From Lentilactobacillus raoultii (GTDB lineage: Bacteria; Bacillota; Bacilli; Lactobacillales; Lactobacillaceae): a stretch of DNA of 64,000 nucleotides. Below are positions 5,683-33,188 of the stretch, piece after piece (position 1 is the first letter of the stretch; each line of letters opens with the position of its first letter). The translations under genes were made by a program, and so were the position numbers. The stretch lies in NCBI RefSeq assembly GCF_900411375.1, contig NZ_LS423000.1, positions 62,001-126,000 of the forward strand, written 5' to 3'. The notes below the pieces were generated by a model. It was not told where the DNA came from. It saw only the letters and a list, made by a program, of their open reading frames with translations, and did no database searches.

Positions 5683-6274
5683 TTGTAATAATCACCACGT
5701 TCATTTGATAGTTTCTTTTTTTAACAGTTAATTCAGTTGCAACTGAAATTTTTTCATCAGGGTAACTCAACATTTCTCCAATAAAGACTTGCCGGTGCTG
5801 TCCCCGTTTTTTTATTTCTTGAGCAATTTCGTACGGCCCCGTTACCTGATCTGTCACCATTCCAATCGTTGTATGTTGTAACAAAAAATCAAAATCAGGA
5901 ACTTGACCATGGCTACTGGTTAAATACACATCATTCATTGGAAACTTTAATCGATGAAAAAAATATTGAATAGCACTTATTCCTGGGACAATTTGAATTT
6001 TTTCTCCAGGAAATTTTTTTATAACCCAATTGCCAATTCCATAAAGTAACGGATCACCAGAAGCTAAAATGACAATTTTTTTATCAATATGGGCTTTCAA
6101 AAATATTTCCAGATCTTTCAATTTTGGTAAAACAACAGCTTTTGACTTAAAAGTTGGAAAAAGTGCAAGTTGGCGACTGGATCCAATCAAAGTTTCTGCT
6201 TCTTCCAAATACTGACTACTACCATTTATCATTAAGTCATCGCTGCCAGGTCCAATGCCTAAAACTATTATCAT
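5675..6274 (-). CDS. cbiE: Cobalt-precorrin-7 C5-methyltransferase CbiE
   Basis: About 199 residues. It starts MIIVLGIGPGSDDLM, has the SAM loop LASGDPLLYGIGNW and PGISAIQYFFHRL, and ends YQMNVVIITNA. This is a compact CbiE, which methylates C5. The ATG at 6274 overlaps the cbiD stop at 6271; the alternative at 6280 adds only Met-Ala. Its downstream overlap with cbiT supports coordinate production of the two half-reactions. Confidence 0.92.
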   Translation of the reverse strand: MIIVLGIGPGSDDLMINGSSQYLEEAETLIGSSRQLALFPTFKSKAVVLPKLKDLEIFLKAHIDKKIVILASGDPLLYGIGNWVIKKFPGEKIQIVPGISAIQYFFHRLKFPMNDVYLTSSHGQVPDFDFLLQHTTIGMVTDQVTGPYEIAQEIKKRGQHRQVFIGEMLSYPDEKISVATELTVKKRNYQMNVVIITNA

Positions 6275-7398
6275 TGCCAATGATCCTCGATTTCTTTAAT
6301 CGGTTTAGTGGCAGCTAATAGTCCAGTCTGACTTGAAAAAATAACTGCATCAATCGTCACTTTAGGCTTTTTATGTGCCAACAACCTTTCAGATCGATAT
6401 TTGATTTTATCAACAATTTTCTGGTAAACGCTTTCATATCCCGCTTCATTGACGATACGAACCATGTCAATTGTTGTTAAACACTTATAAACTTTTTGAA
6501 CTAATTCCGTAGGAGCTCCAAGTAATGCTAAATTTGCAACCATAATCTCAGCTCTCGCGTCAGCATCTTTACTATGAGTTGAAAAGATCCCTGCCGAAAC
6601 TTTAATTAATTTGCCTAAGTCACCAACTATCAATACATGTTGAAATCCTAAACGTTGTGTTTCCTTTAATACATAACCAACAAAATTGCTCATTTGAACC
6701 TGCTTAGTAACCGGAATCGCCATCTCGTTCTTTAAAAAGTCTTCACCATATTGACCAGGTGTTAAAATAATTTCATTATCCCCACGTTGACGATGGATAT
6801 TCATCTCAATAGAAATTGATTGTTTCCAACTTTCCTCAGACATCGGTGTCACGATTCCACTAGTCCCCAAAATTGAAATGCCGCCAACAATTCCCAATTT
6901 AGGATTGTATGTTAGTTTGGCAACCCGTTCGCCTTCCGGTGCTGAAATAATAATCTTGGCTCCTCTATTTGGTCCAATTAGTTTTCGTACGCTTTGTTTA
7001 ATCATCTTCCGAGGAGTCGGATTAATCGCCGGCATTCCTGGATCATTAGCCAATCCTTTTTTTGTTACCCGCCCAATACCTTTACCACCATTCAAACTAA
7101 TATGAGGATCACTTTGCAAGATAACTTCAGCGTAGATCAGCATACCATCCGTTGCATCTTGATCATCACCACCATCTTTAACCACCGCGGCACTGGCCTT
7201 ATTCTGATCAAATTGACAGTGATGAACTTCAAATTGAACTTCTTGTCCATTAGCAGCCCGGACCGTTACCTTATTCTGAGACTTTTGAGTTAATATCGCG
7301 TTTACAGCTGCAATTGAGGCAGCTGTTGCCGTGGTTCCAGTCGTAAAGCCCTTACGCAACTTTCGACCATTATAATAAACATAATCCTCTTCAGACAT
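6271..7398 (-). CDS. cbiD: Cobalt-precorrin-5B C1-methyltransferase CbiD
   Basis: 375 residues, with the hallmark LRKGFTTGTTATAASIAAV near residue 15, VKDGGDDQDATDGM near residue 75, GIGRVTKKGLANDPG and the central GGISILGTSGIVTPMSEE. CbiD methylates C1 in the cobalt-containing pathway and has no counterpart in the aerobic route, so it marks the operon as the anaerobic type. It begins ten bases after the end of cbiC and shares its stop region with cbiE. Confidence 0.95.
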   Translation of the reverse strand: MSEEDYVYYNGRKLRKGFTTGTTATAASIAAVNAILTQKSQNKVTVRAANGQEVQFEVHHCQFDQNKASAAVVKDGGDDQDATDGMLIYAEVILQSDPHISLNGGKGIGRVTKKGLANDPGMPAINPTPRKMIKQSVRKLIGPNRGAKIIISAPEGERVAKLTYNPKLGIVGGISILGTSGIVTPMSEESWKQSISIEMNIHRQRGDNEIILTPGQYGEDFLKNEMAIPVTKQVQMSNFVGYVLKETQRLGFQHVLIVGDLGKLIKVSAGIFSTHSKDADARAEIMVANLALLGAPTELVQKVYKCLTTIDMVRIVNEAGYESVYQKIVDKIKYRSERLLAHKKPKVTIDAVIFSSQTGLLAATKPIKEIEDHWQ

Positions 7399-11487: not shown

Positions 11488-11997
11488 TTAGTGACCTCTC
11501 AAATATGACTCTGATTTGATTGCCCTCGGCAAAAAAGCATAGACTCCTTCACACACAATAATATTTAAGATTGTTGCAATCGTTAAAGGAACAAAAAAAG
11601 CTAAAATTGCTGCCTTCATCAAGGGATATAAAAATAGCATTTCCAGAGGGACGTTAATGGCATAGCCAACAATATCGGAAATAATCACAGTTCCCCAACG
11701 ACTCGTGCCGAACTTTAGTCTAATCCATCCAAAAACTGCCATACAGATTCCCATAAAGAAGCCGATAATTAAATGAATGGGTAGAGTCAGTGGGAATCCT
11801 GCCAAAGCTGCAGAAACCATATGTCCAAAGAAACCTAAAAAAGCACCATATAATGGTCCAAGCATGACCGCTCCTAAAAATGCCGGTGCTGAATCAAACG
11901 CAACAGATCCCATAATTTTAATATTTGCTCCTACAACACAAAGAGCTAAGAAGATTGACGCTAATGTCAGTCTTTTTAATTTAATTGAATTAATCAA
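11488..11997 (-). CDS. ECF transporter S component, CblT-like (possible alpha-ribazole uptake)
   Basis: About 169 residues, nearly all in five or six hydrophobic helices, with GSVAFDSAPAFLGAVMLGP, FGHMVSAALAGFPLTLP and HLIIGFFMGICM. This is the pattern of small ECF substrate-binding subunits that share an energizing module encoded elsewhere. The GSVAxDSAP motif and the position ahead of cobD resemble CblT, the alpha-ribazole transporter subunit described in Listeria and Geobacillus; that substrate is inference. The TTG at 11997 was chosen because GGAGGG lies seven bases upstream. The GTG at 12021 precedes that ribosome site and is unlikely. Confidence 0.7.
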   Translation of the reverse strand: MINSIKLKRLTLASIFLALCVVGANIKIMGSVAFDSAPAFLGAVMLGPLYGAFLGFFGHMVSAALAGFPLTLPIHLIIGFFMGICMAVFGWIRLKFGTSRWGTVIISDIVGYAINVPLEMLFLYPLMKAAILAFFVPLTIATILNIIVCEGVYAFLPRAIKSESYLRGH

Positions 11998-12421
11998 AAA
12001 TTTTCCCTCCGTTCTCTTCACAACTGCTTATTCTCATCATGAGCAAGCTTATCGCAAAATCCAGAGTGGTTACAATAGTTTGTGAATCATTAGACAATTT
12101 TATTGATAAAAAATCCTAAAAACACAATATAGTAACGATTTAGTTTATATTTTCATTTTTAAGCCTTGTTAAATCAATTCGAAGCCATTCTTTATTCGGT
12201 TTATAAATTATTTATACAGTAAATTGCAATTCCTATTAAAAATATTTATTTGAATTTATCATATTTTGTGCTTAATTTAGATGAAATAGCAAAATTTTGT
12301 GATCTTGAATTAAAAATACCACACCATCGATTTCTTCTCAATTTCGTAAAGAAATGTTTAGTAAAAACGGGTACAATAAAACCTATCGAGAACTTTTAAT
12401 TTAAACTGAGGAGGCAGCTAA
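11998..12421. promoter_or_regulatory. Divergent intergenic region between cob operon and adenosyltransferase gene
   Basis: About 420 AT-rich bases with no gene. It must hold the cob operon promoter and the promoter of the plus-strand adenosyltransferase gene. A TACAAT at 12372-12377 could be the -10 of the latter; no good -35 precedes it. Two copies of ATTTTGTG start at 12263 and 12294, 31 bases apart. I looked for the conserved B12-box core of a cobalamin riboswitch on both strands and did not find it. Confidence 0.45.
12080..12097. promoter_or_regulatory. Rex-like operator candidate upstream of the cob operon
   Basis: The 18 bases TTGTGAATCATTAGACAA match the TTGTGAA-N4-TTCACAA pattern of the NADH-sensing repressor Rex at all 7 left-arm positions and 5 of 7 right-arm positions. 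It lies about 85 bases upstream of the first cob-operon gene. Redox control would make sense for a pathway serving NADH-consuming diol reduction. One imperfect copy in AT-rich DNA is weak evidence. Confidence 0.3.
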
Positions 12422-15436: not shown

Positions 15437-16279
15437 TTAATTCTTGGCTAAATACTTACTAAAAAATGATTTAGCATATGGACACTTTGGGACAACTCTT
15501 AAGCCAAATAGTTGTCCCATCAAAATAAACTTTAAAACGAGTTGAGCTGCAATCCCCTGTCCACGATAATCTGAATTAACGGCAATATCAATAATTACCA
15601 GTTGCCGATTTTCAATGGAAAAGCTACCACTTCCAACTATTTTTTGTTGCCCATCAACAGCTTTTAATTCCTGTTGCCAAATCATAAATAATGGACTTGT
15701 CATTTTGGACACATCAAAACCAGCTGTTGAAGATTCTGAGTTCAATAAAACAAACTTCATTAAATTTTTTACAGCCTTAACGAGACTATTGGCAACTACC
15801 CTATTAGTCAGAAGTTGCTGATCATCAAGCATGGTTGATATGTGCCCTAAATATATTTCAGATGGTTGGATGACCTGTAAGCCGACAGACATGGCAACTT
15901 GCTTCAAATGTTGACTTGCGCCAAAACCACCTAAACTTCCAATAGAATCTGAGATAATGAGGGCGGGTTTACCTAACCATAAACTTCCTTTATTTGAACG
16001 AGAACCAACATCTAAAGCGTTTTTTAAACAACCAGGAATAGATCTGTTATATTCAGGGGTGACAAATAGAAAACCATCTACCAATTTTAATTGTTCCTTA
16101 AACTTCTCGCAGGCTTCGATTTGAATGCCTTCCAAGTCTTGATTAAATAGGGGCAATTTATCAATTTCAATAAACTCAGGAATAAATTCATTTTGAAACA
16201 TTAAAGCCATGTTTTTTGCTAATTGTTTCGAAAAGGATGCCTTGCGAAGACTTCCAACAATGATTCCAATCTTTTTCAA
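15437..16279 (-). CDS. NADPH-dependent FMN reductase fused to a GNAT-like acetyltransferase
   Basis: 280 residues in two domains. Residues 1-180 are a flavodoxin-like FMN reductase: KIGIIVGSLRKASFSKQLA, PLFNQDLE and TPEYNRSIPGCLKNALD (flavin loop). Residues 185-280 match the small CG-type acetyltransferase family: GSGSFSIENRQLVIIDIAV, the acetyl-CoA loop DYRGQGIAAQLV and VPKCPYAKSFFSKY. It starts with TTG after AGAGGTG. Inside a pdu operon it might supply reduced flavin for cob(II)alamin reduction, since no PduS is present; that is inference. The acetylation target is unknown. Confidence 0.82.
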   Translation of the reverse strand: MKKIGIIVGSLRKASFSKQLAKNMALMFQNEFIPEFIEIDKLPLFNQDLEGIQIEACEKFKEQLKLVDGFLFVTPEYNRSIPGCLKNALDVGSRSNKGSLWLGKPALIISDSIGSLGGFGASQHLKQVAMSVGLQVIQPSEIYLGHISTMLDDQQLLTNRVVANSLVKAVKNLMKFVLLNSESSTAGFDVSKMTSPLFMIWQQELKAVDGQQKIVGSGSFSIENRQLVIIDIAVNSDYRGQGIAAQLVLKFILMGQLFGLRVVPKCPYAKSFFSKYLAKN

Positions 16280-17542: not shown

Positions 17543-18721
17543 CTATCCAATAATTTTGGCTGTCTCACGCGCAATGATCAATTCTTCATCCGTTGGAATA
17601 ACGAGTACTTTAACTCGACTATCTGCCTCAGAAATATCAATATCGTTATCCTTATTAGCCGACTCATCAATCTTAACGCCGAGATATGTCAATCCTGCGC
17701 AAACCCTGTGGCGGATAGGAGCAGAGTGTTCGCCAACACCAGCTGTAAACACTAATGTGTCTATCCCGTTAAGGTCTGCAGTATAGGCAGCTATATAATG
17801 TTGAATTTGATGAACGTAAACTGCCAATGCTAACTTAGCTCGTTGGTTACCAGCGCTTTCAGCTTTAAGAATGTCTCGAACATCATTGGAAATTCCGGAA
17901 ATCCCTAACAAACCAGATTTATGATTTAACATTTGTCGAATATCATTAGCACTTAAATGTTCTTTTTCAGCTAAGAATGGCAAGATATTCGGATCAACGT
18001 CACCAGAACGAGTGCCCATTACCAATCCTGCTAAAGGCGTGAATCCCATTGACGTATTAACCGATTTTCCATTCTTAATTGCACAAATACTTGCACCATT
18101 CCCAAGATGACAAGAAATAACTTTATCAGAGTAGTCCTTACCATAACGTCGGTTAACTTCACTGTAAATATACTGATGTGATTGGCCATGAAATCCATAC
18201 CGTCGGATACCATATTTTTCATAATATTCGTATGGCAAAGCGTACATATATGCTTTAGGAGGGATCGTACTATGAAACGACGTATCAAAAACCGCAACTT
18301 CTTTAGCGCTTGGCAGTAATTTTTCAAAAGCTTCAATTCCAAGTAAATTCACTGGGTTGTGAAGTGGTGATACAGAAGCCAAATCAGCAATCTTCTGTTG
18401 AACATCATGATTAATTTCAACTGATTTGGTATAGTAACGACCACCATGCGATACTCGATGACCAACACCGATGATCTCTGATTTATCTTCAATGACCCCG
18501 CTGTCAAGTAACGCATCAATAACTAGTTTGACACCTTCAGTATGATTTTTAATAGGTTGTGTTGATTTATACTCCTTAGAGCCAACATGATAACTAAAAA
18601 TACAGTCATCGTGTCCAATTCGATCAACCAATCCACTAACCAAAACCACTTCTGCTGGCATTGAGTACAATTTAAACTTAAGCGAAGAACTGCCTGCATT
18701 AATTGAAAGAATCTTTGACAT
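17543..18721 (-). CDS. pduW: Propionate kinase PduW (acetate kinase family)
   Basis: 392 residues of the ASKHA acyl kinase family: LSINAGSSSLKFKLY at residue 4, GHRVSHGGRYY, FDTSFHSTIPPKAY, YGFHGQSHQYI, GNGASICAIKNG and FTAGVGEHSAP. It turns propionyl phosphate (or acetyl phosphate) and ADP into the acid and ATP, the energy-yielding last step of the oxidative pdu branch. The operon position after pduQ distinguishes it from housekeeping ackA. A good AAAGAGG stands seven bases before the ATG. Confidence 0.92.
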   Translation of the reverse strand: MSKILSINAGSSSLKFKLYSMPAEVVLVSGLVDRIGHDDCIFSYHVGSKEYKSTQPIKNHTEGVKLVIDALLDSGVIEDKSEIIGVGHRVSHGGRYYTKSVEINHDVQQKIADLASVSPLHNPVNLLGIEAFEKLLPSAKEVAVFDTSFHSTIPPKAYMYALPYEYYEKYGIRRYGFHGQSHQYIYSEVNRRYGKDYSDKVISCHLGNGASICAIKNGKSVNTSMGFTPLAGLVMGTRSGDVDPNILPFLAEKEHLSANDIRQMLNHKSGLLGISGISNDVRDILKAESAGNQRAKLALAVYVHQIQHYIAAYTADLNGIDTLVFTAGVGEHSAPIRHRVCAGLTYLGVKIDESANKDNDIDISEADSRVKVLVIPTDEELIIARETAKIIG

Positions 18722-28162: not shown

Positions 28163-29839
28163 TTAAAAATCTGTTTTTTTCGGATCCATTGCCCAAGGCA
28201 CATCAGTAATCTTCTTCCAAGTATCTTTATCTTCCCAAACTCGGTAACCGGTGCCTGGCCCTTCATAATCGTTTGCATCATTAATGGCAGAAATACAATT
28301 CCAGTCTTTATCAAAAATTGCAGAGGTTTGAAGATAGTCACCGCAAACTTTTTGTTGAGCAAGATGAACAACTGCATTTGCGACATCGTCGAAGCCGTGA
28401 TCTTTTAATGCTTTAATGATGTCAATAACCGTTACCCCTCTTGACATTAAATCTTGAGCAGCCTTCATATCCTGGACCATATCGCGTTTTGGCATATCAT
28501 CAGAATTGCTAGCATAAGTAGCAGCCTCAACTTCTTCATCCGTAATTTCTGGTAGACCTAAACCATCAAAAACTGCTTGGATTACCTTAGCAGCCTTTTT
28601 TCGAATCTTAATCGCATCTTCTTCGTGGATTGGTAAAATACTGCCATTAACTGCCAGGTCTCGCTCCATGGAGCAGTAATCATCATAATCAAGAACATCC
28701 ATATTTGATCCTGCAAAAGTATTATCCTTATTTTCCTCTGCAGCGTATCCGGATGAAATATAGTCAGTCCCAGCAATGAATTGACCAATCATTCGTTCCG
28801 TTCGTCGAATATCAGAATGCGAAAATGCTTGGTCATTCCCTGAAGCGCATTCAACATCAAGCATCATACATAACAGATTTTCACCTAAGACTTCACGGAT
28901 ACCTCCAGGAACCGCACCCGGAATTCCAATACAACTAACACCACCATTTTGCAAGCCTTGAACACCTGAGCCTTTGGTAATGAAAATGCAACGGGCTTCC
29001 AAATAAAGCATCGACTTTCCTTCTGTATACCCCATCATAACTTCGGAGCCGGCACCAGAAGTAAATCTCATTTTCAGCCCACGTGAGGCATAACAGGAAG
29101 CTAAAAATCCTTTAGACCAAGGTGTATCATCACCATCTGTAAAGACTCGATCTGTTCCATAAACAGAAATTGTTTCAGCATAAGCAGTGAAACCACGCAT
29201 TCCTAAACTAAGCTCTTCCGATTCCTCAACAGAGCACTGCGTAATGACACCCGGTCGCCCAGTTTGTGAGCCAACCATAATTGCAATTGCATTCATTGGT
29301 GCATATCGGGCAACGGCTGTCGTCGTCTCTTGCTCAGGGAAGCCTCTTAAGGCTGCTTCAGCAGCATCAGCCGCAATTTCAACCGGGTTATCCAACGTGT
29401 TTGTAACATGACATTGCGTTGCAGGTGTTCGGCGAGGACGCATTTTTTGAGTTGCCATGATCATTTCTGCAAAATTCAGCTTACTGATAACCTCTTCTGC
29501 TTTTGCAGGTGTCATTGCAGTTGTTAAAGGAATAATTTTGCTTCGGGGAACATTGGGATCACAAAGCATATTTGCGATCTTAATGGAATCCATCCCCATT
29601 ACTTTTTCAGCATTTTCTAAATTAATGCCGTATTTTGCAATGTACTGATCAATTAGATCAAAATCTTCCTTCTTTTTACCATCCAGCTCAGTAACAACAC
29701 CATTTTCAATCTTAATGCTAGGCTTAGGATCATTTTTGCCCATCATCGCAACTAGGCCTTCATCATCCCATTGTTTAACAAATCCATCTAAATGAACCGG
29801 ACGCTTTTCAAGCTTTTCAAATCTTTTTTGTCGTTTCAA
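28163..29839 (-). CDS. pduC: Propanediol/glycerol dehydratase large subunit PduC
   Basis: 558 residues, the usual length. It has RFEKLEKRPVHLDGFVKQW, MRPRRTPATQCHVTN, ETISVYGTDRVFTDGDDTPW, GAGSEVMMGYTEGKSMLYLE and GVQGLQNGGVSCIGIPGAV, which line the TIM barrel holding substrate, potassium or calcium and the adenosyl group. It dehydrates 1,2-propanediol to propionaldehyde and glycerol to 3-hydroxypropionaldehyde; residues alone do not settle which is preferred. TTG start with GAGAGGAGG seven bases upstream. Confidence 0.97.
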   Translation of the reverse strand: MKRQKRFEKLEKRPVHLDGFVKQWDDEGLVAMMGKNDPKPSIKIENGVVTELDGKKKEDFDLIDQYIAKYGINLENAEKVMGMDSIKIANMLCDPNVPRSKIIPLTTAMTPAKAEEVISKLNFAEMIMATQKMRPRRTPATQCHVTNTLDNPVEIAADAAEAALRGFPEQETTTAVARYAPMNAIAIMVGSQTGRPGVITQCSVEESEELSLGMRGFTAYAETISVYGTDRVFTDGDDTPWSKGFLASCYASRGLKMRFTSGAGSEVMMGYTEGKSMLYLEARCIFITKGSGVQGLQNGGVSCIGIPGAVPGGIREVLGENLLCMMLDVECASGNDQAFSHSDIRRTERMIGQFIAGTDYISSGYAAEENKDNTFAGSNMDVLDYDDYCSMERDLAVNGSILPIHEEDAIKIRKKAAKVIQAVFDGLGLPEITDEEVEAATYASNSDDMPKRDMVQDMKAAQDLMSRGVTVIDIIKALKDHGFDDVANAVVHLAQQKVCGDYLQTSAIFDKDWNCISAINDANDYEGPGTGYRVWEDKDTWKKITDVPWAMDPKKTDF

Positions 29840-30702: not shown

Positions 30703-30996
30703 TTACTTTGAAGCTGGTGTTCCTGGTTTTGGTAATAATTTTTCAACATCAGTATGAGGACGTGGAATAACATAATTAGAAACAACCTCACCAATATTTT
30801 CTGCTGCTGTAACACCTGCATCGACTGAGGCTTTAACAGCACCAACATCACCACGAACCATGACTGTTACGAGCCCATGACCAATTTTTTCCTGACCAAC
30901 TAAAGAAACATTTGCTGCTTTTACCATTGCATCTGCCGCCTCAATTGACGCTACTAACCCTTGAGTTTCGATCATACCTAAAGCTTCTTGTTCCAT
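30703..30996 (-). CDS. pduA: Microcompartment hexameric shell protein PduA
   Basis: 97 residues with one BMC domain: [53 protein letters not shown] and [18 protein letters not shown]. It is a major facet protein whose central pore admits propanediol. It is the first gene of the operon, with TAGGAGG eight bases before the ATG. It is close to PduJ but ends with an extra Pro-Gly-Thr-Pro-Ala-Ser-Lys tail. Confidence 0.96.
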
Positions 30997-31026
30997 GAGT
31001 GAAACCTCCTATAAATATTGAAAGTA

Positions 31027-31049
31027 CAATTCAATCAAAAAATGAATTG
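31027..31049 (-). other. Small hairpin in the pdu leader RNA
   Basis: CAATTCA (31027-31033) and TGAATTG (31043-31049) are exact inverted arms around a 9-base loop, between the pduA -10 and its ribosome site. It could stabilise the 5' end of the long mRNA; without flanking T run it is not a terminator. Confidence 0.4.
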
Positions 31050-31070
31050 CTTGTTCTTGAAAACACTTAC

Positions 31071-31076
31071 ATTATA
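31071..31076 (-). promoter_or_regulatory. pduA promoter -10 element (no -35)
   Basis: A perfect TATAAT on the minus strand, with a predicted leader of about 65-70 bases. At 17-18 bases upstream there is nothing like TTGACA, the expected form of an activator-dependent promoter next to an AraC-family gene. Confidence 0.6.
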
Positions 31077-31114
31077 AGATGTTATGAATCAAATATCTTG
31101 AGAAAATTATTTTT

Positions 31115-31145
31115 TTTATCACAATATAAGCAACTTTCATCACAA
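31115..31145. promoter_or_regulatory. Direct repeats 21 bp apart, candidate PocR binding sites
   Basis: TTTATCACAA at 31115-31124 and TTCATCACAA at 31136-31145 are near-identical direct repeats with a 21-base period, two turns of the helix, so a protein would see both on the same face. They lie about 40 bases upstream of the pduA -10. TTGTGATGAAA, as seen on the minus strand here, recurs upstream of pduF at 33292-33302. AraC-family activators commonly bind such repeats. Confidence 0.5.
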
Positions 31146-31178
31146 AAAAATGCAAATAAGATTAAATTTTGCAATTTC

Positions 31179-31192
31179 TGTAAGCGCTATCT
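31179..31192. promoter_or_regulatory. Catabolite-responsive element (cre) in the pduA-pocR intergenic region
   Basis: TGTAAGCGCTATCT agrees with the cre consensus TGWAANCGNTNWCA at all but the last base and has the palindromic AAGCGCT core. Its position upstream of both promoters fits CcpA repression of propanediol use in the presence of preferred sugars. Confidence 0.65.
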
Positions 31193-31287
31193 TGTTTTTC
31201 CTAGGGTCATGCGTTAGTATTAGAGTTAATTACAATATCTTGTTATTTAGCTTGATTATTTTTTCACAAGAATGGAGGTAACTATCC

Positions 31288-32364
31288 TTGCTTACCCAAA
31301 TTGACAAGAAATATGATTACTCTAAACTCTCTAACGAAGTTGAACTTTTTTCGAAAATCACACAGATTGAAACATATGTCTATCTCTCCGAAGGGGTTTT
31401 ACTCAAAGGCGGGGGTGTTTTCACAAGTGCTGATGATATTCAAAAAAATCTATCTTTTAAAAGAACTGAAACGCTTTCTATTTTTCCGGTTATTGTTAAC
31501 GATGATATTTTTGGATGCATTATTTGCAACGCAACCAGTGTCTCTCAAGAGCGCATTAACTTGACTAGGACTTATCTTGAAAATATTTTTAATTCGGTCA
31601 TCTCAGAAGAAAACAATGCTCATATTCAGATCTTGAATCCTTTAAACGAGCAAAGTATTTCAAGGCTACGAACTTTATCTCTTCTTTTTCGTCCTACGCT
31701 TGTTGGTATCAAAAAAGAAAAAAGCCCCTCTCATGGCAAAAATCAAGTGTCTGAATTAGCTGATAATAAAACCAGTATAAAGTGTGCATTGGATTATATT
31801 AATCAAAACATCAAACAACCACTTTCTCTAGAATCCGTTTCCCAAAACGTTTTTCTGTCGCCATCTTATTTAAGTAAAATTTTCAAAAGACAGTTACATG
31901 TTAATTTCATTAACCACATCAATATGCTAAAAATCTCCCTAGCTTGTAAAAAATTAATTACTACTGAAGAAAAAGTTAGCACCATCGCTAAACAAGTTGG
32001 TTGTTCTCAAACAAGTTATTTTTCGAAAGTTTTCAAGAGCCTAACAGGCGTAACACCTTTAACTTACAGGCGAAACAATCGATCGGTTGAAAAGATTTAC
32101 ACAATTCCTCATGATATTACGTGGAGCGACGATGATACGGTTTATGATGTCTCACGTCGTTTCTTCGAACGGCATAATATTCCTTACTCAGTTCAGATTG
32201 TCAATGGTTACCCTTATATCAACCAAATTGGAGAATTTGCTGATTCAGTTAACGATCGTGGCTGGATTTACACTATCGATTGTCGACAACCTACCAAATC
32301 AGCCAGCACTATTCCCGCCTCAAACAATTCCGTTATTCAATGGATTTATACCGCTTATAATTAA
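31288..32364 (+). CDS. pocR: PocR-type AraC-family regulator with a C-terminal DUF4430-like domain
   Basis: 358 residues in three parts. Residues 10-110 resemble a reduced PocR sensory domain (YVYLSEGVLLKGGGVF, IFPVIVNDDIFGCIICNA). Residues 165-262 are an AraC double helix-turn-helix (PLSLESVSQNVFLSPSYLSK and ISLACKKLITTEEKVSTIAK). Residues 283-355 are an added domain: VYDVSRRFFERHNIPYSVQ, GYPYINQIGEFAD, RGWIYTIDCRQ and SVIQWIYT follow the DUF4430 pattern, the domain assigned to the C-terminal part of transcobalamin and intrinsic factor. It starts with TTG eight bases after GGAGGT and diverges from pduA. It most likely activates pdu, and perhaps cob, genes. Confidence 0.85.
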   Translation: MLTQIDKKYDYSKLSNEVELFSKITQIETYVYLSEGVLLKGGGVFTSADDIQKNLSFKRTETLSIFPVIVNDDIFGCIICNATSVSQERINLTRTYLENIFNSVISEENNAHIQILNPLNEQSISRLRTLSLLFRPTLVGIKKEKSPSHGKNQVSELADNKTSIKCALDYINQNIKQPLSLESVSQNVFLSPSYLSKIFKRQLHVNFINHINMLKISLACKKLITTEEKVSTIAKQVGCSQTSYFSKVFKSLTGVTPLTYRRNNRSVEKIYTIPHDITWSDDDTVYDVSRRFFERHNIPYSVQIVNGYPYINQIGEFADSVNDRGWIYTIDCRQPTKSASTIPASNNSVIQWIYTAYN

Positions 32365-32402
32365 TTTCATACATGTTTACTCAAATGATGTTTATAAAAA
32401 CT

Positions 32403-32475
32403 AAAAGAGCCACTTGGAATTATGGATTTTAACAAGGAAATGAAAACTCAAAATCCAATTCTCAGTGGCTCTTTT
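32403..32475. terminator. Bidirectional terminator between pocR and pduF
   Basis: AAAAGAGCCACT at the left end and AGTGGCTCTTTT at the right are exact inverted arms; inside, TGGATTTT and AAAATCCA extend the structure. Both strands end in T runs, so it serves both converging genes. Confidence 0.85.
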
Positions 32476-32483
32476 AATTTATT

Positions 32484-33188
32484 TTATAACAAAAATTTAA
32501 TCGCAGCAGCGATTACGCCACCAACCAGCGGCCCACACATTGGAACCCAAGCATACCACCATTCGCCACTGCCACCATTAGGTACAGGCAAAATAGTGTA
32601 AGCCAATCGAGGTCCCCAGTCACGCGCTGGATTGATCGCAAAACCAGTTGTCGTTCCAAGTGAAGTCCCAATAACCAAAATTAACGTACCAACAATAAAG
32701 GGTTTAAGTCCCTGTGTAAAATCTCCAAGATTAAGTAAAATAAATACAAACGCAAAAGTAGCAATAACTTCAGATAAAAAATTGAATATGGGAGATTTAA
32801 TCGCAGGCCGCGTTGCAAAAATGCCAACTTGATTCCCGTTTGCTTCACCCTTACTTGCTTTAAAATGTGGTGTAAATTGTATAATTACCAATGCTGCTCC
32901 ACAAAAAGCGCCTAAAAACTGTCCTGCCAAATAAGGAATCACTTCAGACCATGGAAAAAAGCCAAAGATAGCAAAAGGAATTGTTACTGCTGGATTTAAA
33001 TGCCCTTGAGATCCTAATGCTCCCGCAACATACACCCCCATCGTAACCGCCAATCCCCATGAGGTACAAACGAAGAGCCAACTTGATCCCTTTGCATAAC
33101 TCTTATTTAAATTCAATCCCGCACCGGTTCCCGCACCTAACAGAATTAAAATCATCGTTCCAAAAAACTCACCAATAAAACCGTTCAA
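32484..33188 (-). CDS. pduF: Propanediol/glycerol uptake facilitator PduF (aquaglyceroporin)
   Basis: About 234 residues, six membrane spans and the two NPA half-helices: GHLNPAVTIPFAIFG near residue 65 and TGFAINPARDWGPRLAY near residue 185. The aspartate after the second NPAR is the mark of glycerol facilitators rather than water channels. It lets 1,2-propanediol or glycerol diffuse in. The TTG at 33188, nine bases after AAGGGAGG, gives the expected N terminus MNGFIGEFFGTM. Convergent with pocR. Confidence 0.93.
   Translation of the reverse strand: MNGFIGEFFGTMILILLGAGTGAGLNLNKSYAKGSSWLFVCTSWGLAVTMGVYVAGALGSQGHLNPAVTIPFAIFGFFPWSEVIPYLAGQFLGAFCGAALVIIQFTPHFKASKGEANGNQVGIFATRPAIKSPIFNFLSEVIATFAFVFILLNLGDFTQGLKPFIVGTLILVIGTSLGTTTGFAINPARDWGPRLAYTILPVPNGGSGEWWYAWVPMCGPLVGGVIAAAIKFLL

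Follow-up and report, generated by a model that had tools for sequence, protein, structure and literature searches.

What does the regulator encoded beside the pdu operon of Lentilactobacillus raoultii sense, and with which of its domains? The stretch under study, here called the window, comprises 64,000 nucleotides (RefSeq assembly GCF_900411375.1, contig NZ_LS423000.1, positions 62,001 to 126,000 of the forward strand), and the pocR-type gene in question lies on its plus strand at 31288..32364, as do the features of the gene described below. Its start codon is TTG, 9 nt downstream of a likely ribosome-binding site, GGAGG, read from the sequence (31274..31278). The 358-residue product combines a shortened PocR-like sensor, a double AraC-type helix-turn-helix (HTH) and a C-terminal DUF4430/SLBB domain. 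We take this protein to be what serves Lactobacillaceae as PocR: an activator of the AraC type that would switch on the pdu genes, together with the cob genes in species that have them; being an HTH protein, it is presumably intracellular. The explanation that we favour, and consider moderately likely, is that its C-terminal SLBB domain, of the transcobalamin type, directly detects cobalamin (vitamin B12) or a late corrinoid, and that pdu and cob are thereby activated. The basis for this is the domain itself, its predicted fold and conservation, the gene neighbourhood, joint occurrence of the regulator with diol dehydratase and the lack of a pocR-antisense riboswitch.

The sequence-only reading had placed a DUF4430 domain at the C terminus and proposed a profile search against PF14478, which bears the assignment out: residues 282–355 match positions 1–71 of the 72 in the profile at 27.8 bits (Pfam cut-off 23.8; E 3.6e-6), and the C-terminal 76 residues alone reach 31.0 bits (E 3.6e-7). 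The match is weak but common to homologues. We used two alignments, A1, with 39 of 47 proteins (leaving out near-duplicates, the late-starting L059, and L051, which lacks DUF4430), and A2, with 50 rows, the window protein and 49 of 57 named homologues (leaving out near-duplicates L083, L085 and L089, the partial or broken L087, L120, L127 and L129, and L130; L130 is the gene of L051, and L012 duplicates L037). DUF4430 is found in 39/39 members of A1 (E<=0.1) and in 50/50 of A2, the window protein included (E<=1; best 4.6e-14), and our own domain profile also finds it in L083, L085, L087, L089, L120 and L127, all outside A2. Scored singly, three of five homologues lie above the Pfam cut-off and two slightly below (22.0 and 23.4 bits).

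The domain spans residues 267–357 (32086..32358). Its predicted structure has strands at 269–274, 300–305, 308–314, 324–330 (containing GWIY) and 349–356 (ending QWIYT), and a helix at 285–295; the order of elements that had been read at 283–355 fits this model, whereas the start was misplaced, the domain beginning earlier with the strand at 269–274. Burroughs et al. 2007 (PMC1796856, cited like the other papers here from excerpts) define SLBB as a beta-grasp fold in which the helix is followed by an inserted hairpin, and the predicted model has just this form, with its hairpin at residues 300–314 (NGYPYI; 32185..32229); in transcobalamin the equivalent insert contacts cobalamin (PMC1796856). 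Fold comparison with the domain model returns the B12 carriers, and the best matches are nearly all corrinoid binders, as the proposed kinship with the transcobalamin beta domain would have it; identity to the beta domains of transcobalamin, intrinsic factor and haptocorrin is 9–16% in the fold alignments. Foldseek with the full-length model places transcobalamin at rank 49 (E 0.013). Searches of the PDB by sequence were not significant (domain profile A4, best hit 3u7z at E 0.1) or, with A1, gave HTH matches and no transcobalamin, so the kinship is settled by fold comparison alone. Both the DUF4430 assignment and this kinship are well supported.

Within A2, mean pairwise identity is 54% for the HTH, 47% for DUF4430 and 32% for the N-terminal part. 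A loop of the domain, D331-C332-R333-Q334-P335 (32278..32292), stands out by its conservation, with Q334 in 50/50 rows and P335 in 47/50, and lies outside the helices and strands of the model. Residue 332 (32281–32283), beside the invariant Q334, is Cys in 26/50 rows and Gly in 24/50, a split that is possibly the mark of a subtype or of a cobalt ligand.

These residues bear on the alternative that fares best against direct corrinoid sensing, namely that the domain is ligand-free and acts only in dimerising or stabilising the protein or in contacting RNA polymerase. AraC proteins commonly have a dimerisation domain, and little of the DUF4430 domain is left in L130, a truncated paralogue from L. 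brevis ATCC 14869. The fold would stand without a ligand, since the transcobalamin beta domain is nearly identical in its apo and bound forms (PMC5599065). We nevertheless hold this alternative unlikely: invariant or near-invariant residues such as Q334 and P335 sit in a loop rather than in helices or strands, and the regulator is kept together with diol dehydratase.

The AraC-type DNA-binding domain (residues 164–265; 31777..32082) is confirmed by matches to PF12833 and PF00165, HTH_18 matching residues 186–262 at 62.2 bits. The name 'PocR-type' given to the protein by the sequence-only reading holds through gene context and homology to L. reuteri PocR, not through family models: no match to PF10114, the PocR sensory domain, was found in the window protein (E<=1) or in 39 homologues (E<=0.1; the Pfam family listing is complete for these A1 homologues and covers 25 of 41 families for A2), and the NCBI PocR equivalog model scores 95 bits against a cut-off of 500, over residues 138–265 only. 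Profile–profile alignment with hhalign relates residues 14–117 (31327..31638) to the classical PocR sensor at a probability of 77% (E 2e-5) when the Furfurilactobacillus protein L139 is in the template; with L139 removed, residues 14–86 align at 61% (E 8.1e-5, score 32.2), and 100 column-shuffled controls of the latter template score at most 18.1. The domain is thus probably a PocR sensory domain that is shorter than the classical one and lacks its Cys-rich insert, and the regulator seems to pair it with an added SLBB domain. CodY chains also came up as a fold match for this end in the full-model Foldseek search, at an rmsd of about 16–18 Å, and were not used.

With the Cys-rich insert missing from the N-terminal domain, diol sensing must have its place somewhere, which speaks for a second alternative, in which the SLBB domain binds another soluble pathway ligand (glycerol, 1,2-propanediol or an aldehyde) in place of the shortened N-terminal sensor. 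The SLBB superfamily binds varied ligands according to those who described it (PMC1796856). A corrinoid-sized site would be large for a three-carbon diol, however, and the predominance of corrinoid binders among the fold matches, together with the 14 of 22 riboswitches that precede DUF4430 genes (below), makes this reading distinctly improbable.

A regulator of the DUF4430 type occurs in 35 of 397 Lactobacillaceae genomes (E<=1e-40, reaching residue 355 or beyond), a count that includes G380, whose pocR is broken and stands outside the alignments, and that omits genomes with HTH-only matches (G033, G068, G097, G123, G142 and G170). PduC is found in 46 of the 397, and 34 genomes have both (Fisher p 7e-38, related genomes being treated as independent). 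In 33/35 carriers a regulator copy matches PF14478 at E<=0.001; the others are G380 and G155, whose protein, a member of A1, matches DUF4430 at E<=0.1. G155 is the one carrier without PduC and does have CbiD, which is present in 21/35 carriers (one copy broken) and absent from 14/35. Two regulator copies occur in 12/35. Named carriers belong to Levilactobacillus, Lentilactobacillus, Secundilactobacillus, Limosilactobacillus (including L. reuteri) and Bombilactobacillus, with one unassigned Lactobacillus sp. In Lentilactobacillus kosonis (L129; G380:C3) each of pocR, pduC and cbiD is split or contains stops, the picture of a decaying pdu-cob cluster. Scanning genome contigs with the single protein returned no relatives; the A1 alignment as query found them. 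When A2 was run against 398 genomes of the class, scoring at most five candidates per genome, none of the matches listed outside the host genome (G000) extended past model position 291 of 364; with that sampling, absence of the regulator outside Lactobacillaceae is suggestive only.

The sequence-only reading had also seen no cobalamin riboswitch in the window, and it was right: there is none in the window at the Rfam gathering score, nor anywhere in the host genome (E<=0.001). Under strict filters the 397 genomes hold 22 cobalamin riboswitches above cut-off, in 18 genomes. Downstream of 14 of the 22, at most 6 kb away and on the same strand, lies a DUF4430 match; in six of these loci we read the open reading frames (ORFs), several of which begin with signal-peptide-like sequences, and in L174 and L175 a CbiQ-like membrane ORF, also named by reading and not by profile, overlaps the DUF4430 gene. 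Among the other eight, G123 and G170 account for four, two of them antisense to classical pocR and two in the vicinity of cob genes (in G170 judged by distance to CbiD only), one precedes a membrane-protein-like ORF (G355), two precede eut-like ORFs, again by reading (G084, G295), and one is in a genome without DUF4430 (G261). In the host itself just one further DUF4430 gene was found (E<=10; G000:C12:56851-57057, L052:6834-7604), encoding 257 residues with a signal-like N-terminus.

Classical PocR, as in Salmonella and Listeria, shares with the window protein the AraC HTH, the pdu neighbourhood and a likely N-terminal kinship; it differs in having the full Cys-rich sensor (PF10114) and no DUF4430. 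Here it stands beside pdu in five genomes, all with PduC in the locus: L134 (G170), G123, Loigolactobacillus rennini (L135, G033), Vagococcus (L136) and Enterococcus (L140), of which L134 and G123 were scanned and have PF10114 and the others are classical by alignment. In 4/5 a cobalamin riboswitch lies about 0.1–0.2 kb past the pocR stop on the opposite strand. This is the layout of Listeria, where the Rli39 riboswitch makes aspocR when B12 is lacking (PMC7677406). No pocR-antisense riboswitch was found in any of the 35 genomes with the DUF4430-type regulator; seven of them have riboswitches above cut-off, none beside pocR, the nearest (G336) being 7 kb off before DUF4430 genes. Direct corrinoid sensing thereby gains comparative support, both from riboswitches placed before DUF4430 genes and from antisense riboswitches that accompany classical PocR only. 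Loigolactobacillus backii and iwatensis (L137, L138; PocR classical by alignment for L137) lack pdu genes in the locus as well as any riboswitch above cut-off, and are outside the five-genome count. In the Vagococcus locus a CRISPR array and tracrRNA (L136:11495-12256 and 18338-18427) lie 2–9 kb from pocR.

Several points weigh against direct corrinoid sensing. DUF4430 occurs, to our knowledge, also in proteins with no known B12 link, and a shared fold proves no function. The correspondence in position with transcobalamin is only rough, and in the A4 search of the PDB transcobalamin-2 comes 14th of 15 rows (E 1.9). The truncated L. brevis paralogue (L051, identical to L130), among the proteins outside the alignments, has no DUF4430 match. 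The riboswitch link concerns DUF4430 proteins other than the regulator, and those from riboswitch loci included in A4 have domains only 14–26% identical to that of the regulator. Furfurilactobacillus (L139, which is G142, and G024) has a shortened PocR, no DUF4430 in the genome and no pocR-antisense riboswitch (none above cut-off in L139, where G142 has one below cut-off about 20 kb away; none in G024), and L. rennini L135 has a classical PocR and no riboswitch above cut-off; since the former has neither device and the latter no such riboswitch, pdu may not be under B12 control everywhere. In seven further pdu genomes (G043, G114, G143, G166, G361, G367 and G385) no DUF4430-type PocR was found, nor a full classical PocR within 18–20 kb around pduC; G043 has another AraC protein there and G114 a 153-residue HTH ORF. 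Binding and its effect on expression are predictions, and the sign of the response, activation, is borrowed from Listeria and from pathway logic. In L. brevis ATCC 14869 the second PocR-type gene is at L130:8947-9882, and its neighbour encodes a DUF4430 protein with a signal-like N-terminus.

In a third alternative the domain senses cobalamin yet turns PocR off, as feedback repression of cob synthesis. Cobalamin riboswitches as a rule act as repressors of genes for synthesis and uptake. Feedback of this kind would suit the cob cluster in the same neighbourhood and the control of B12 synthesis by L. reuteri PocR (PMC3162504). We rank this alternative last, since 14/35 carriers keep the regulator without CbiD, repression of pdu in the presence of its own cofactor would be hard to understand, and B12 allows PocR to be made in Listeria (PMC7677406).

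We return to direct sensing of cobalamin or a late corrinoid: the C-terminal domain resembles in shape that half of the human B12 carrier proteins which holds the vitamin, and so the regulator probably senses B12 itself. The isolated beta domain of transcobalamin binds cyanocobalamin and cobinamide and changes little on binding, and assembly of the beta and alpha domains requires cobalamin (PMC5599065). By analogy, a corrinoid would be held against the hairpin (300–314) and the 331–335 loop, and once bound would dock the SLBB domain on the N-terminal domain or a partner subunit; docking would set DNA binding or activation, such that the activator state forms only with cofactor available and, presumably, diol or glycerol present. 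Control of this kind at the protein level would replace the Listeria-style Rli39/aspocR riboswitch. The need for PocR in L. reuteri for production of B12 and reuterin is consistent with an activator (PMC3162504). More tentatively, and with less than even confidence, we suggest that lactobacilli swapped the pocR-antisense B12 riboswitch for an SLBB domain captured from secreted B12-uptake proteins, which would clamp a corrinoid against a decayed PocR sensor and make a new class of B12-sensing, cofactor-gated activator.

The neighbourhood is that of a pdu-cob cluster. Divergent to the regulator is a pduA-like shell gene (30703..30996, minus strand, named from reading of the ORF), the first of the pdu operon, which also contains PduM, aldehyde dehydrogenase and acetate/propionate kinase-type genes and pduC, the large subunit of B12-dependent diol dehydratase (28163..29839, minus strand; PF02286, E 3.7e-291; G000:C21:90178-91836). 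The operon runs on into a cob/cbi cluster marked by cbiD (6271..7398, minus strand; PF01888, E 2.9e-94), with uroporphyrinogen-III methyltransferase, cobyrinic acid a,c-diamide synthase and CobD-type decarboxylase above cut-off and a relative of cobalt-precorrin 5A hydrolase below it. A divergent pduA homologue adjoins pocR for 34 of the 57 named homologues, and for some others the neighbour is EutJ-like or comes from elsewhere in the cluster. Inside the pdu-cob cluster there are also a tyrosine-phosphatase-family protein (PF13350; 16358–17149), relatives of which recur in several PocR loci, and an FMN-reductase/GNAT fusion (15437–16279); an ECF transporter S component (PF12822, 57.6 bits; 11488–12021) lies between cob genes and a nickel/cobalt-transporter-like gene.

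Between pduA and pocR lies the only match in the window (31179..31192, plus strand) to the cre consensus of CcpA, TGWAARCGYTWNCW. The word CGCTTAC, overlapping this match, occurs in 21 of the 35 regions between pduA and pocR (a single shuffled set gave 15 for its best 7-letter word), and the two observations hint at catabolite control. Another word, GTTTTCAAA, occurs in 16/35 (5 for the best 9-letter word of a shuffled set); no operator candidate from such recurring words is defended here. A scan of 30900–32500 gave 13 promoter-like sites against 6.5 expected, not used as evidence, and no terminator.

The idea that an AraC-type protein with a transcobalamin-like domain senses B12 is not new. 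Burroughs et al. 2007 report that the transcobalamin-like clade has intracellular members joined to an HTH domain of the ArsR-like or, in Lactobacillus (in its old wide sense), the AraC-like kind, and suggest that B12, its precursors or some other ligand is probably what these members respond to; a reviewer asked that B12 as the only ligand be toned down (PMC1796856). The window protein, with an AraC-type HTH and a transcobalamin-like domain in one intracellular chain, has the same architecture and falls under the same prediction of a one-component factor. Their example (gi 86604362) is from another genome, and the excerpts neither name PocR nor compare riboswitches; the carriers themselves differ from the regulator in being extracellular, with an alpha/alpha toroid (PMC1796856). 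Santos et al. 2011 show that L. reuteri PocR (Lreu_1750), a homologue of the window protein beside pduA, controls pdu and cob genes and is needed for B12 and reuterin production, and leave about 60 extra C-terminal residues unassigned (PMC3162504); the words DUF4430, SLBB, transcobalamin and riboswitch are absent from that paper, and a 359-residue L. reuteri relative carries DUF4430 in our searches. CarH and AerR/PpaA are B12-dependent transcriptional regulators too, sharing corrinoid control of transcription and using another, light-linked B12-binding fold.

In open-licence PMC literature we found nothing joining PocR to SLBB or transcobalamin, nothing on AraC with cobalamin binding, Lactobacillus and propanediol, nothing on a 'transcobalamin-like' 'domain of unknown function' in bacteria, no DUF4430 paper on such a regulator, judged by title, and no test of the 2007 AraC-SLBB prediction. 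The sequence-only reading, which passed over that publication (PMC1796856) and the shortened-PocR-like N-terminal half, is confirmed in its observation and supported in part in its interpretation. What is new here is the identity of the fusion as PocR, its conservation, riboswitch context and fold match, and the antisense-riboswitch swap.

If the domain binds a corrinoid, lactobacilli would possess a protein B12 sensor built on the fold of the animal B12 carriers, one regulatory input on related operons having passed from RNA to protein. It would also account for the way in which lactobacilli that have no riboswitch at pocR, pdu or cob adjust the B12-dependent diol pathway, and with it the production of reuterin, 1,3-propanediol and vitamin B12, to the supply of its cofactor.
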